Source of the DNA: JAFGIT01 sp016929465 [NCBI: Candidatus Coatesbacteria bacterium]
GTDB lineage: Bacteria; B130-G9
NCBI GenBank assembly: GCA_016929465.1
Contig: JAFGIT010000035.1
Span: forward strand, 1 to 5,194
Reading direction: 5' to 3'
Length of the DNA: 5,194 bases
Positions 1 through 5,069 of this stretch are shown here, in pieces; position 1 is the stretch's first letter, and every line of letters starts with the position of its first letter. The position numbers were made by a program, and so were the translations under genes. The notes under the pieces are model-generated. The model ran no database searches. It worked only from the letters and a program-made list of their open reading frames with translations, and was not told the origin of the DNA.

Positions 1-405
1 GCCAAGCATATCGATTGTCTCGGCGTCCTTACCTTCGTTGAAAAGCTCCATCGCGTCCCATACTTTCAGGATGAGCGGTCGATGTCCCGGCGAGGCGCTT
101 GCGGCAATCTTGCGGAAGTCTTCTGCACTTACGTTAATTCGACCGTTTCGGGTATCGGTGCAGATTGAGCGGAGCAGGTCGATGAGATGCCTCTCGTCAT
201 TCCTCGGATTGACCTTCGCGAGCGCGCCAGATAAGCGCTGAAGCAAATTGGGATCACGACTGGAAGAAAGAACTTGAAGAGCGGCCCTGCAGGCCATGTT
301 TGGAGTGAATTCGCCAGACGAAACACCGGTCTCTATCCTGGCCACGGCGGCAGAAAAGTCATTCTGCCCCAATGCTTGACGCACATCCTCTATCGCCGAT
401 GTCAC
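1..405 (-). CDS. Unrecognised helical protein, N-terminal part (runs off left edge)
   Basis: An open frame of 135 codons runs from GTG at 405-403 to the window edge with no stop, so the C-terminus is missing. An in-frame TAA lies 12 codons upstream of the GTG, and no ATG or TTG lies between them, which makes GTG the only ordinary start. A G-rich stretch (420-417) 11 nt upstream is a poor ribosome binding site. The product begins MTSAIEDVRQALGQ and is rich in Ala, Leu, Arg and Glu with regularly spaced hydrophobics. I see a run of amphipathic helices, possibly a helical-repeat (TPR/HEAT-like) fold, but no catalytic motif, signal peptide or membrane segment. I do not recognise the family. The opposite frames give short, compositionally odd peptides. 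It lies about 495 nt beyond the end of the DUF1464 gene with a repeat element between, so it is probably a separate transcription unit. Confidence 0.6.
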   Translation of the reverse strand, partial: MTSAIEDVRQALGQNDFSAAVARIETGVSSGEFTPNMACRAALQVLSSSRDPNLLQRLSGALAKVNPRNDERHLIDLLRSICTDTRNGRINVSAEDFRKIAASASPGHRPLILKVWDAMELFNEGKDAETIDMLG

Positions 406-899: not shown

Positions 900-1886
900 T
901 CAGATTCCCATGTTCTCGACCAACGCCCCATATCTGCCTCCGAGTATGCCCTCCCCAATCAGATAAGCCCCACAGGCAGCTTCCTTGGCCACTTCCGAGA
1001 TTCTGCCCACCTTTGCTACCGGCGCATACATCTTGAACCTGTTGAACAACTCCCGTTGAATAGCATCCTGACATATCAGCCGGCCAGAGATGATTATCTC
1101 TCGCGGTTTGCGAAGGGAGACCATCAACGCGGCAACGTCTTTTTCGAGGCTTTCCCCGAGGAGCCTGAGAGCCTCCGACCCGGAGAGAATATCCTCCGGC
1201 TCGCTCTCTTTGCTCGCGATGAAATCCCTCAGGCCGCCCTTGAACACAGCCTCTTGTGTCACTGGGGGCTTTAGCCGGATCGCAATCTCCGCGTCCATTC
1301 CTCCTCCAGCGATGAAGCCAGGGCTGCCGCAGGTTCCTCCGATACCGTCGGTGATCTTACCGCCTTCGACTGCCATGGCCGCCGTGAAGGCATATCCGAC
1401 CTCGACCAGGACAAAAGAAGTCTCATCGAAGGGGATGCTCAAACGCTCCGATTGGTCCTTGATCGCAAGTGCCACACAGCAGACCTTGTCTGCGGTCCCC
1501 ATGTCGAGCCGATTCCATTTCCGAAATTCGGGCACCGTCGGGAGGTGAACCACGCCAGGCGTGAAGAAGACCGGCAATGCCTCGGCCTTCATCTTCAGAA
1601 GCAGCCTCTTTATGCCCTCATTCACTGCCAGTTTCGTGTCGAGCGGGATCATCTTCCCAATATCCTCGTCGGTCATATCCTCGATCTTCTTCCTGGGAAT
1701 TCCATAGCCCGATGGACCGACTATCGCATCCAGAGGCAGTAGAGCTCGGACCCTCTCCAAGAGCATCTCCGGCCTACCGAGGACATCTTCGGTTTTTATC
1801 GCCTCATCGATCAGAATTTCCCGGTAATTCCCCAATCCAAACAGGTCGAAGCTGCAGGTCCCGGGGTCGATTCCAATTACCCTCAA
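900..1886 (-). CDS. DUF1464 family protein, ASKHA-fold kinase-like (predicted butyrate kinase group)
   Basis: The product is 328 residues, full length for DUF1464, a mainly archaeal family sometimes annotated as predicted butyrate kinase. The reaction has not been shown, to my knowledge. The layout fits an acetate/sugar kinase-Hsc70-actin fold. A phosphate-1 type loop IDPGT lies at residues 6-10 after a short strand, GPSGYG is at 57-62, MGTADK at 129-134, a second Gly-rich strand-turn region at 161-190 (GIGGTCGSPG), and IIISGR at 264-269. It should be cytoplasmic, with no signal or membrane segment. The TTG start at 1886 is chosen because it overlaps the upstream TGA as TTGA, has AAAGGA 8 nt upstream, and puts MRVIGIDPGT at the N-terminus. 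A TTG at 1973 would add 29 residues lying over the radical SAM C-terminus. The first internal ATG (residue 41) is beyond the phosphate loop, so a non-ATG start is required. It is the last gene of the operon. Confidence 0.85.
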   Translation of the reverse strand: MRVIGIDPGTCSFDLFGLGNYREILIDEAIKTEDVLGRPEMLLERVRALLPLDAIVGPSGYGIPRKKIEDMTDEDIGKMIPLDTKLAVNEGIKRLLLKMKAEALPVFFTPGVVHLPTVPEFRKWNRLDMGTADKVCCVALAIKDQSERLSIPFDETSFVLVEVGYAFTAAMAVEGGKITDGIGGTCGSPGFIAGGGMDAEIAIRLKPPVTQEAVFKGGLRDFIASKESEPEDILSGSEALRLLGESLEKDVAALMVSLRKPREIIISGRLICQDAIQRELFNRFKMYAPVAKVGRISEVAKEAACGAYLIGEGILGGRYGALVENMGI

Positions 1887-2896
1887 TTCGTATTTCCTTT
1901 CAATGGACAGGATGGATCCGAGGCGGTCCAGCTTCCTGTTAGGGCGAAAGCCCTGGATCTGCAGCCGCCGCAATCGTCAATGTGCCTACATATCCGGCAC
2001 GCGCCACTCCTCCGCTCCCGGTCGCGCACCTCCGACACCAGCTGGGAATCCTGCATCTCCTTCCAGAGCGCTGTGAGTGTGCTGCCCTTCACGCTACCCA
2101 TGCTGACCGGCGCGAATGTGCAGGGTCGGACCGCTCCGTCGGTTTCGATGAAGATATATTCGCCAAAAACGCAGCGTGAAAGGTCAGGGACAAGTATCCC
2201 GTCCTCCGCCTCTCTTTCAAAGGAGATGCCCTCCTCCAACAGGAAAGGCTTGAAGAATGGCTCATCGACATACATGTCCATTCCGACAGATTCCCTCAGT
2301 CCAATTAGCTCTTTGAACAACTCCCGGTATTGAGCGCCTGTCAGAGCGTATTCAGAGTAATTCTGACACGGCTTCAGCCCAAGGATCGTGATCTTCGAAT
2401 AGCCCAGCTCTTTGACAAAGCGAAAGATGTTCGAGACCTCGTGCAGATTGTGCTTTCCAATGGTGACAGGGCACGAATCGAGTATCCCGAATTCCCCCGC
2501 GAGCGCAACAGACTCCCTCAGCCGGGAGAAGCTCGCGCCGATTCTCGTGCTCTCGTAGCTGCCCCTGTCGGCGCCATCGATGCTGATCATGAGTCTCACG
2601 GCTGATTCCGCCAAACGCTCCACACTCATGCGGTTCAGCAACATGCCGTTGCTTATTAGATAGAGCCTAATTCCGCGCCTGTGCAGGATGTCTATGATGT
2701 CCCAGAGTTCATCTCTCAGGAGCGCCTCGCCCCCCTCGAGTATGACCCATCCAGGATTTAAGGCCGGTATCTCCTCTGCGACGCTAAGGAGAGTCTCCGA
2801 GTCGAGCTCCTCCTGGGCCATTCCACGACAGTGGACGCATTTGAGATTGCATCGGTTGGTGATCGCCCAATCGATAAGATGGGGATTGTCTAGCAA
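1883..2896 (-). CDS. Radical SAM/SPASM domain protein
   Basis: The product is 337 residues. The radical SAM core carries CNLKCVHC (Cys16, 20, 23), the CxxxCxxC ligands of the SAM-binding 4Fe-4S cluster, followed by LEGGEAL at 53-59, which corresponds to the GGEP motif with Ala in place of Pro. The C-terminal third has a seven-cysteine SPASM pattern: Cys242-x11-Gly254-x4-Cys259, then Cys300-x2-Cys303-x5-Cys309-x2-Cys312, then Cys330. This predicts auxiliary 4Fe-4S clusters, as in peptide-modifying and heme/PQQ-type maturases. The substrate is unknown. It is cytoplasmic and oxygen-sensitive by family expectation. The TTG start at 2896 has GGAG 5 nt upstream and overlaps the methyltransferase stop by 7 nt. 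The first internal ATG (residue 26) lies after the cluster motif, so it cannot be the start. Its TGA overlaps the next gene's TTG. AhbC/AhbD-type heme enzymes and RiPP maturases are the nearest functional analogies I can name, but neither is proven. Confidence 0.9.
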   Translation of the reverse strand: MLDNPHLIDWAITNRCNLKCVHCRGMAQEELDSETLLSVAEEIPALNPGWVILEGGEALLRDELWDIIDILHRRGIRLYLISNGMLLNRMSVERLAESAVRLMISIDGADRGSYESTRIGASFSRLRESVALAGEFGILDSCPVTIGKHNLHEVSNIFRFVKELGYSKITILGLKPCQNYSEYALTGAQYRELFKELIGLRESVGMDMYVDEPFFKPFLLEEGISFEREAEDGILVPDLSRCVFGEYIFIETDGAVRPCTFAPVSMGSVKGSTLTALWKEMQDSQLVSEVRDRERRSGACRICRHIDDCGGCRSRAFALTGSWTASDPSCPLKGNTN

Positions 2897-3687
2897 CTCT
2901 TCTCCGCGACGAAGATCATCTCTGGAGAATCATCTGTCAGGGGTGATTTGTCGAAGTTGCCGAAGAGGTCGATAATATCGAATCCTGCCCGGACAAGCAG
3001 ATGCTCGACCTCATAGCGGAAGAAGTAGCGGAATGGAAAAGCCTGAACGAACCGCTCCGTCCTTCCGTCGGGATGAGTGCAATAGTAGATTATTTCGACC
3101 TCGTTGAATTGCTCAGTGCGGTGGAATGCCTTGGTTCGGTTTGTCCGCCTTAGCCTCCGACCGTCTGGCATCTCGAATTCGGGCGTATCCTCGACTTCTT
3201 TCATATAGATCGTATCATACATGCGTCTCGGATAAGTCTGAAAGAGCTCGAGAATAAACCTCCCGCCCGGGGCAAGATGCCGGCGGACGCAATTCAGGCA
3301 GGCTAGTTGCGCTTGAACTGAGATAAGGTGCTGAAAAGATCGAAACGGCGTAGTTATCAGGCCAAATTGGCCCTCAAGGTCGAATGCGGTCATATCACCG
3401 AGTATAAGCGAGATTCGCTCCCGCACCTCCGGAGGCTGCGCTTGCAGCTTGCTTTTGCAGGCGCCCAACATGCTCTCGGATATGTCGAGGCCCACGATAT
3501 CAAAGCCCGCGGCGGCGATCGGTATGAGTATTCGTCCCGTTCCACACCCAAGCTCGAGCACCCGGCCATGAGATAAACGGGCTGCCTCAACATAGAAATC
3601 AAGGTCAGCCCGTTTCGCATATGCGGGAACCAAATCGTAATACTCTGAAAGGAAAGGCTCGTACTTGTAGACGCCTTGTCGGCTCAC
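2890..3687 (-). CDS. Class I SAM-dependent methyltransferase
   Basis: The product is 265 residues and cytoplasmic. Motif I is VLELGCGTG at residues 43-51, followed by GLDIS at 66-70, whose Asp68 is the expected ribose-binding acid. GDM at 97-99 is the next binding loop and LAPGGRFILEL at 138-148 is the post-catalytic strand. The C-terminal part (about 155-245) is mostly beta and aromatic-rich, as in Methyltransf_25/11-type enzymes that act on small molecules or cofactors. The sequence does not tell the acceptor. The N-terminus (KYEPFLSEYYDLV) is the typical lead-in helix of this group. GTG at 3687 is supported by AAGGAG (3700-3695) 7 nt upstream, and no ATG occurs before residue 74, which is past motif I. 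It is the first gene of the operon, and its stop lies inside the first codons of the radical SAM gene. Confidence 0.9.
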   Translation of the reverse strand: MSRQGVYKYEPFLSEYYDLVPAYAKRADLDFYVEAARLSHGRVLELGCGTGRILIPIAAAGFDIVGLDISESMLGACKSKLQAQPPEVRERISLILGDMTAFDLEGQFGLITTPFRSFQHLISVQAQLACLNCVRRHLAPGGRFILELFQTYPRRMYDTIYMKEVEDTPEFEMPDGRRLRRTNRTKAFHRTEQFNEVEIIYYCTHPDGRTERFVQAFPFRYFFRYEVEHLLVRAGFDIIDLFGNFDKSPLTDDSPEMIFVAEKSC

Positions 3688-3848: not shown

Positions 3849-4052
3849 CTAGCTCTCATCCAGTCGCATGTTCGCTGCACGGATGCCTTTCGGTCCCTTC
3901 TCTATCGAGAAGTCCACCTTTCTACCCTCCTCGAGCGCGTCGTACTCGACACCCTCAAGAGCTGAACGATGGAAGAAGACCTCGTTGCCGTCCTCTCCGC
4001 GGATGAAACCGAAGCCTCGGTCTCTAATGAGTCTTTTAATCTCGCCTTTCAA
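3849..4052 (-). CDS. Cold-shock domain protein (CspA family)
   Basis: The product is 67 residues, the normal length for a single cold-shock domain. It is a five-stranded OB-fold protein that binds single-stranded RNA/DNA in the cytoplasm and acts as an RNA chaperone. RNP1 is RGFGFI at residues 12-17 and RNP2 is VFFHRS at 25-30, both intact. KGPKGIRAANMRL at 52-64 is the standard final strand. The start is TTG at 4052, giving MKGEIKRLIRDRGFGFI. The in-frame GTG at 4061 is part of the Shine-Dalgarno sequence itself (GGAGGTGA, 4065-4058), which sits 5 nt before the TTG. The next ATG is residue 62, so a non-ATG start is required. It is followed by 161 nt before the methyltransferase gene and is probably its own transcription unit with a leader of about 100 nt. 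Confidence 0.93.
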   Translation of the reverse strand: MKGEIKRLIRDRGFGFIRGEDGNEVFFHRSALEGVEYDALEEGRKVDFSIEKGPKGIRAANMRLDES

Positions 4053-4057
4053 ATCTT

Positions 4058-4065
4058 TCACCTCC
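4058..4065 (-). promoter_or_regulatory. Perfect ribosome binding site of the cold-shock gene
   Basis: GGAGGTGA is fully complementary to the 3' end of 16S rRNA. It decides the start: it contains the upstream GTG (4061-4059) and leaves 5 nt to TTG 4052. Confidence 0.8.
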
Positions 4066-4601: not shown

Positions 4602-5069
4602 CTAACCGGATGAATCCGCTATAGGACGGTATTGACGAATACTCATCGAACCAAGGTGCGGACTTATATCGTCGTGAACCAAGCCCACTCTGAGAAGCGA
4701 AACCTCCCCCAACTCAAGCCAATTCAGATTTGGCTTCAGGAAAAACACTGCCGAGTCTTTCTCAATCTCTGCCTCGAGCCGTCCGAGAATACGGGCTTCA
4801 TCTTCACCATACCACTCTAAATAAGCCTTGTTCGTGGGCAGACTATCAGGCTGCCGAAACGTCAAGATGACTATATCATAAACAGCTGTCGATATGTTTG
4901 TTCGCCCACTGCTCAGGCAACCCTCCGGAAGCTCCTTGCCCGGACATAGATCGAGTCTGGCGCCATCAGCCCCACTCGGACTTCCATAGGTGTAGAAAAG
5001 CTGCTCCGGCTGTGCTCCAAGATGACTTCTCCACCTCGCTCTCAGAAGAGATGCAATGTCGCCTCTCAC
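4602..5069 (-). CDS. Unrecognised 155-residue protein
   Basis: The frame has ordinary codon use and a balanced, soluble-protein composition. It begins MRGDIASLLRARWRSHLG, has strand-like stretches (AVYDIVILTF about 62-71, AVFFLKPNLNWLEL about 106-119) and an acidic helix (EDEARILGRLEAEIEKD about 88-104). I see no signal peptide, membrane segment, metal cluster or known catalytic motif, and I do not recognise a family. GTG 5069 has AGGA (5078-5075) 5 nt upstream. It also forms a GTGA overlap with a frame that ends at 5066, which supports it. The frame stays open for 16 more codons upstream, to a TAG at 5120-5118, and that stretch (IIVLEQSNDRIRV) also looks protein-like. A rare ATT start or a frameshift joining it to the upstream frame therefore remains possible. 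No ATG is available at either place. Confidence 0.6.
   Translation of the reverse strand: MRGDIASLLRARWRSHLGAQPEQLFYTYGSPSGADGARLDLCPGKELPEGCLSSGRTNISTAVYDIVILTFRQPDSLPTNKAYLEWYGEDEARILGRLEAEIEKDSAVFFLKPNLNWLELGEVSLLRVGLVHDDISPHLGSMSIRQYRPIADSSG

Follow-up and report, generated by a model that had tools for sequence, protein, structure and literature searches.

A radical S-adenosylmethionine (SAM) enzyme with a SPASM domain and a protein of the uncharacterized family DUF1464 (PF07318) are encoded by a conserved gene pair, which is present in a 5,194-nucleotide stretch of DNA from a Candidatus Coatesbacteria bacterium (contig JAFGIT010000035.1, assembly GCA_016929465.1; this whole stretch is referred to as the window). 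Three long open reading frames (ORFs) were confirmed on the minus strand of the window, encoding in this order a methyltransferase, the radical SAM/SPASM enzyme and the DUF1464 protein. A sequence-only reading of the window had treated these three genes as one operon acting on one substrate. Comparison across genomes identified the radical SAM-DUF1464 pair as the conserved unit.

Conservation of the radical SAM-DUF1464 pair

GTDB species genomes were scanned with a DUF1464 alignment; 150 relatives were confirmed and the best 80 of them were used (loci and genomes are designated by L and G numbers). A homologue of the radical SAM enzyme (41-61% identical) was located upstream of DUF1464 on the same strand at 21 of the 21 closest loci (L017-L037), and likewise at L082 (43% identity), which belongs to an archaeal metagenome-assembled genome (MAG). 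The labels of the paired records span about nine bacterial phyla (Zixibacteria, Aminicenantes, WOR-3, Chloroflexota/Dehalococcoidia, Acidobacteriota, Deltaproteobacteria, Latescibacterota, Peptococcaceae, and Auribacterota). L031 comes from a MAG labelled Euryarchaeota (UBA287); its DUF1464 falls within the bacterial clade, beta-RFAP synthase was not detected over cut-off, and the locus is possibly a mislabelled record or a misbinned contig. Co-occurrence across distant taxa had been set beforehand as the test of the sequence-only reading; it was found for the pair, but not for the methyltransferase.

The junction between the two genes was compared for 23 loci. Overlaps of 4 nt were present in 11 and of 1 nt in 3, and gaps of 1-400 nt in 8; the junction of L030 was left unclassed, a start codon being absent at the matching place. 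The radical SAM genes of L022 and L023 are cut by contig ends. Among 386 relatives, with at most five radical SAM candidates scored per genome, DUF1464 was found in 7 and a radical SAM match with E ≤ 1e-60 in 4, each adjoining DUF1464. Furthermore, the best radical SAM profile score was at most 195 bits in 24 genomes with unpaired DUF1464, as compared to 466-626 bits in three paired genomes. The protein distances of the two partners agree, with a Mantel r of 0.90 for 18 of the 24 paired loci (left out were L018, L022, L023, L032, L034, and L036, which are incomplete or closely resemble other loci); none of 2000 permutations gave a value as high, and r was 0.80 without L037 and L082 (16 loci).

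Aldehyde ferredoxin oxidoreductase, a family found in 19 of 25 paired genomes, gave no lead as a further partner; it is absent from the 97% complete G154 and adjoins the operon only at L012 among the loci inspected. At L012 (9554-11455, genome G002) it is encoded downstream of DUF1464, at a distance of two genes. In a Thermoprotei genome, DUF1464 has a distantly related radical SAM protein (26% identical) encoded two ORFs away (L088:1162-2664).

The radical SAM/SPASM enzyme

Matches to the Pfam families Radical_SAM (55 bits) and SPASM (28 bits) exceeded their cut-offs. The motifs, which had been described as intact, are strictly conserved: cysteines 16, 20, and 23 of the CxxxCxxC motif and seven SPASM cysteines (242, 259, 300, 303, 309, 312, and 330) do not vary among the 20 relatives aligned. 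The structural model reached a predicted local distance difference test (pLDDT) score of 89.7, and a Foldseek search with it returned anSME, PqqE, and SuiB as top solved folds. According to both alignment and model, the protein begins at the radical SAM core and the N-terminal peptide-binding domain is absent.

The best NCBIfam match was heme b synthase AhbD (TIGR04545) with 157.9 bits against a cut-off of 500; the protein stayed below the cut-off of every NCBIfam family shown, with the AhbD, TIGR04053, NirJ2, and GeoRSP models leading. The AhbD model matched 20 of 20 members of the radical SAM group, and the GeoRSP, mycofactocin, and PqqE models matched many of them too. By these profiles, the enzyme belongs to an AhbD/NirJ/PqqE/MftC-like group, below the family cut-offs.

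The DUF1464 protein

The third protein of the operon matched DUF1464 over its full length (277.3 bits, cut-off 23.5). Its model (pLDDT 90.8) resembles acetate, propionate, and butyrate kinases over the whole length; in rows 1-23 of the structure comparison, all with the acetate/butyrate kinase fold, Z was 20.0-23.2 with 287-301 residues aligned and a root-mean-square deviation of 3.3-4.0. When profiles were compared, the butyrate kinases of these genomes matched with a probability of 96.6%, and acetate kinase alone gave a weak partial match (18.5%). The assignment as an ASKHA-type protein was thus borne out by the predicted fold and the butyrate kinase profile, and DUF1464 therefore very likely binds ATP. 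In an alignment of 49 hand-chosen DUF1464 sequences, the GIDPGT motif is mostly invariant or nearly so, and R122, K123, D128, D133, K134, E162, D198, and E200 are invariant. One cysteine, C136, is nearly invariant and none is invariant; hence, there is no conserved cluster-binding set.

Acetate and butyrate kinases use an Arg pair, an Asp, and a His for catalysis. At these positions of the profile alignment, which is uncertain there, the window protein has Pro and Ala (Arg pair), Pro (Asp), and Val (His); identity to these kinases (PF00871) is about 10-18%. Since the catalytic residues did not align, DUF1464 was not classed as an acetate or butyrate kinase. Phosphorylation, which had been proposed earlier, is plausible from the ASKHA fold, but the residues that acid kinases use are not matched. 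A role as a stand-in for acetate/butyrate kinase was rejected as well: PF00871 members occur in 16 of 31 genomes, all 16 among the 25 with the pair (including G001, in which the pair is broken at a contig end), and in none of the six without it. One paired genome, G154, carries three tandem butyrate-kinase-like genes (L108:993-4220). Short-chain acid kinase activity is disfavoured, and DUF1464 is likely an ATP-using enzyme with a different substrate.

The family corresponds to COG2441, named 'predicted butyrate kinase'. This phrase occurs in the literature, but without PF07318 or IPR009927; publications naming DUF1464, COG2441, or PF07318 were not found in a search that left subscription journals largely outside, and sequence searches found no solved DUF1464 structure.

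Unpaired DUF1464 genes and tetrahydromethanopterin biosynthesis

A cluster gene of the TIGR00284 or beta-RFAP synthase type, as in tetrahydromethanopterin (H4MPT) biosynthesis, was located near 27 of 60 unpaired DUF1464 loci, mostly archaeal. These comprise 19 Asgard loci, six from other archaea (Nezhaarchaeota, Thermoprotei, Altiarchaeales, ANME-1, Thermofilaceae, and Nitrososphaerales), and two from one bacterial genus (G100/G366). Cluster representatives were assigned by profile to pterin-binding proteins, GHMP kinase domains (as in RFAP synthase), DUF447, GTP cyclohydrolase, archaeal dihydroneopterin aldolase, MptE-like proteins, flavoprotein, and PTPS. The cluster at L010 contains FolB, the beta-RFAP synthase family, and FolK as well as TIGR00284 and a (5-formylfuran-3-yl)methyl phosphate synthase type below cut-off. 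Of 26 genomes examined, 25 have one copy of DUF1464. Two copies are present in Thermofilaceae G409 (contigs C163 and C43, L071), and the contig of each also carries a copy of beta-RFAP synthase; on one contig, the two matches are 38 nt apart. The loci without such a cluster include many from Methanoperedens, other Methanosarcinales, and Calditenuaceae-like archaea, and at several Methanoperedens loci a MoaC-type gene lies near DUF1464. Among control genomes, Sulfolobus acidocaldarius carries DUF1464.

Markers of H4MPT synthesis were largely missing from paired genomes. Beta-RFAP synthase was over cut-off in one of 26 paired-genome handles (L017 and G154 being counted twice), namely in the archaeon of L082, as compared to five of six unpaired genomes; three other paired genomes gave weak matches below cut-off, and none of the four genomes of the window's phylum gave a match above it. 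TIGR00284 was over cut-off in none of 25 paired and in three of six unpaired genomes; matches of 165-254 bits, below cut-off, were obtained in the archaeon of L082, G411, and G100, and three other paired genomes stayed below 20 bits. The archaeon of L082 holds the pair together with both kinds of H4MPT-type gene. In the bacteria, the pair would not serve H4MPT synthesis as known, since these markers are missing. For the window's own organism, whose genome is 86% complete, such a role was rejected because neither of the two markers tested was over cut-off.

A tree of 52 of 84 DUF1464 proteins was calculated; the other 32 had been omitted by a hand list, not by measured identity, that was intended to thin close relatives and to remove one partial locus. 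With L082 set aside, the 18 paired rows group in one clade (support 100/100) among archaeal rows, and a single clade of all 19 paired rows including L082 was not rejected by the approximately unbiased test (p-AU 0.44). The tree has no inferred root, so that any direction of transfer is an interpretation. DUF1464 apparently stems from the biosynthesis of an archaeal one-carbon (C1) coenzyme, H4MPT, and the pair appears to have been passed on horizontally among anaerobic bacteria.

The operon in the window and its methyltransferase

The overlapping arrangement described before was confirmed in the window (Table 1). Methyltransferase and radical SAM genes overlap by 7 nt, and radical SAM and DUF1464 genes by 4 nt in TTGA, so that the TTG start of DUF1464 overlaps the radical SAM stop codon. 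The DUF1464 start was taken as this TTG at position 1886; the longest form of the ORF begins at 1973.

Table 1. Predicted genes on the minus strand of the window
Feature	Position	Strand	Remarks
SAM-dependent methyltransferase	2890..3687	-	265 aa, GTG start; accessory gene
Radical SAM/SPASM enzyme	1883..2896	-	337 aa, TTG start; first gene of conserved pair
DUF1464 (PF07318), ASKHA-fold kinase-like protein	900..1886	-	328 aa, TTG start; second gene of conserved pair
Two ORFs without family over cut-off	4602-5069 and 1-405	-	profile searches

The phylum of the window was represented by four genomes (the window genome, G001, G002, and G003), all of which carry DUF1464. Gene order and the overlapping methyltransferase/radical SAM junction recur in G002 (L012) and G003 (L013/L030), which argues that the operon is more than a chance arrangement. 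In G001 (L014:9709-10096), the methyltransferase gene is followed by a contig end at which the beginning of the radical SAM gene is fused to DUF1464 midway through the latter; either a misassembly or a deletion may account for this.

The methyltransferase (Methyltransf_25, 66 bits) is 65-71% identical to its copies in G001-G003. Its nearest NCBIfam model is daptide_MTase (NF041820) with 120.1 bits, below the cut-off of 175. Among the 22 loci L017-L037 and L082, a methyltransferase gene adjoins the pair at one, L030 of the same phylum, and is lacking at 19; at L022 and L023 the sequence begins within the radical SAM gene, so that these loci are uninformative on this point. Outside the window's phylum it was not seen beside the pair, without a search elsewhere in those genomes. 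Methyltransferases with weak partial similarity are encoded 333 and 345 nt upstream at the WOR-3 loci L029 and L032; with just two such loci, the case for a triad is not regained. The view of the three genes as a single conserved unit was therefore abandoned, and the methyltransferase is probably a lineage-specific extra to the pair.

A gene for a cold-shock domain protein (3849-4061, minus strand, 62.9 bits) is located upstream of the methyltransferase gene; in G002 and G003, none was noticed next to the operon on inspection by eye. With regard to the shared leader proposed in the sequence-only reading, a consensus scan gave one weak promoter-like match at 3845-3818, which does not by itself indicate a function. 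An Rfam scan of 13 sources, for which the window and L012 were joined by 11 of the remaining 22 paired loci, revealed only three tRNAs.

Possible function of the pair

Our preferred explanation, which we advance tentatively and rate at somewhat below an even chance, is a module in which the radical SAM enzyme and DUF1464 process one small molecule, with a methyltransferase added in one lineage; the module would be of archaeal origin and horizontally spread. DUF1464 would most likely phosphorylate a small polar biosynthetic intermediate rather than a short-chain acid. The radical SAM/SPASM enzyme would act on that molecule by radical chemistry, either ahead of DUF1464 or following it; a common substrate is suggested by the linkage, the translational overlap, and the matching protein distances. 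In the window's phylum, the methyltransferase, translated ahead of the pair, may add a methyl group, as judged from the overlap. An archaeal C1-coenzyme kinase would thus have been joined by a radical SAM enzyme and then have spread among anaerobic bacteria. Because the H4MPT markers tested are missing from the paired bacteria, the product there would be another small molecule, perhaps a cofactor. The sequence-only reading is partly supported: the association is conserved and the ASKHA and radical SAM motifs are real, and of the three proteins proposed to share a substrate, the methyltransferase is not part of the conserved unit.

Several observations weigh against this explanation. Neighbours beyond the pair differ from locus to locus, none being shared among the loci listed, and most records are MAGs whose contigs may be misbinned. 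Neither H4MPT-type cluster is found within the available flanks of 33 of the 60 unpaired loci, and Asgard archaea account for 19 of the 27 linked ones. DUF1464 is absent from the control genomes of M. jannaschii and M. acetivorans, which carry the beta-RFAP family; hence, it cannot be a universal step of H4MPT synthesis. The beta-RFAP model TIGR00144 also matches in Haloferax volcanii, for which a methanopterin role is considered unlikely (PMC8305020), and it is thus an imperfect marker. The archaeal context does not name the product of the paired bacteria, since beta-RFAP synthase and TIGR00284 were not over cut-off in them, and kinase chemistry is inferred, as the acid-kinase residues are not kept.

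ASKHA proteins also act as activators of radical or corrinoid enzymes. By analogy, DUF1464 might be no metabolite kinase but an ATPase that activates or repairs the radical SAM enzyme or the target of that enzyme, as the missing acid-kinase residues and the tight linkage would allow; we consider this improbable, because genomes with unpaired DUF1464 lack high-scoring radical SAM matches, many unpaired genes reside in biosynthetic clusters, and the conserved cysteine set for binding a cluster is missing. Lower still is the probability we assign to tetrapyrrole modification, with the radical SAM enzyme as divergent kin of AhbD and NirJ and with DUF1464 and the methyltransferase acting on the same tetrapyrrole. 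AhbD is the best match and its model fits every member of the group, but the score is far below the cut-off and models of other families match many members too; no tetrapyrrole gene was recognized by eye among the neighbours listed, AhbA/B/C not being searched for.

Maturation of a peptide or protein, as in systems for ribosomally synthesized and post-translationally modified peptides (RiPPs), is disfavoured to much the same extent. Radical SAM/SPASM enzyme and daptide-like methyltransferase would modify a distant precursor with DUF1464 as a helper, in line with the folds returned by Foldseek and the nearest methyltransferase model. The peptide-binding domain is missing, however, and small ORFs within 700 bp on each side of 23 paired loci (some flanks being shorter) showed none shared beyond closely related locus pairs; the earlier observation that the operon holds no precursor peptide was upheld. 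PqqD is present in 12 of 25 paired genomes, including the window's own, but absent from G154. H4MPT or folate-type synthesis in the window's organism itself appears very improbable: H4MPT-type clusters surround the relatives in archaea and in G100/G366, but the two markers are over cut-off in no paired genome except for beta-RFAP synthase in the L082 archaeon, folate genes not being searched for.

On this explanation, an uncharacterized family would gain a testable role as an ATP-using step, in archaea in C1-coenzyme synthesis and in uncultured anaerobic bacteria, together with a specific radical SAM enzyme, in a small-molecule pathway. A wider proposal, which we regard as rather unlikely as a whole, is a new two-enzyme cofactor or metabolite pathway in which the radical SAM enzyme and the archaeal C1-coenzyme kinase moved as a unit across about nine phyla of anaerobes, with DUF1464 filling an as yet unassigned kinase step of H4MPT-type synthesis in those archaea that have it. 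Seven proteins of methanopterin synthesis were still unidentified according to an estimate of 2011 (PMC3087415); the later status may differ.

Comparison with known systems

The methyltransferase has the daptide enzymes as its best NCBIfam match, but it stays below their cut-off and no precursor peptide was found nearby. The radical SAM enzyme shares profile matches (AhbD over its full length), the CxxxCxxC motif, and a seven-cysteine SPASM domain with the AhbD and NirJ/PqqE/MftC group; it differs by scores far below the family cut-offs and by its partner DUF1464. Acetate and butyrate kinases have the ASKHA fold predicted for DUF1464 over the whole length, whereas their catalytic Arg, Asp, and His residues are not kept. 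Within its own family, the window protein is a full-length member that is paired with a radical SAM/SPASM enzyme in a genome without the H4MPT markers tested. The stretches around the 23 paired loci lack a TIGR00284-type or beta-RFAP-type cluster; in contrast, DUF1464 is a recurrent neighbour of H4MPT clusters (MptA, MptD, MptE-like, beta-RFAP synthase, TIGR00284, and DUF447) in several archaeal lineages and in G100/G366.

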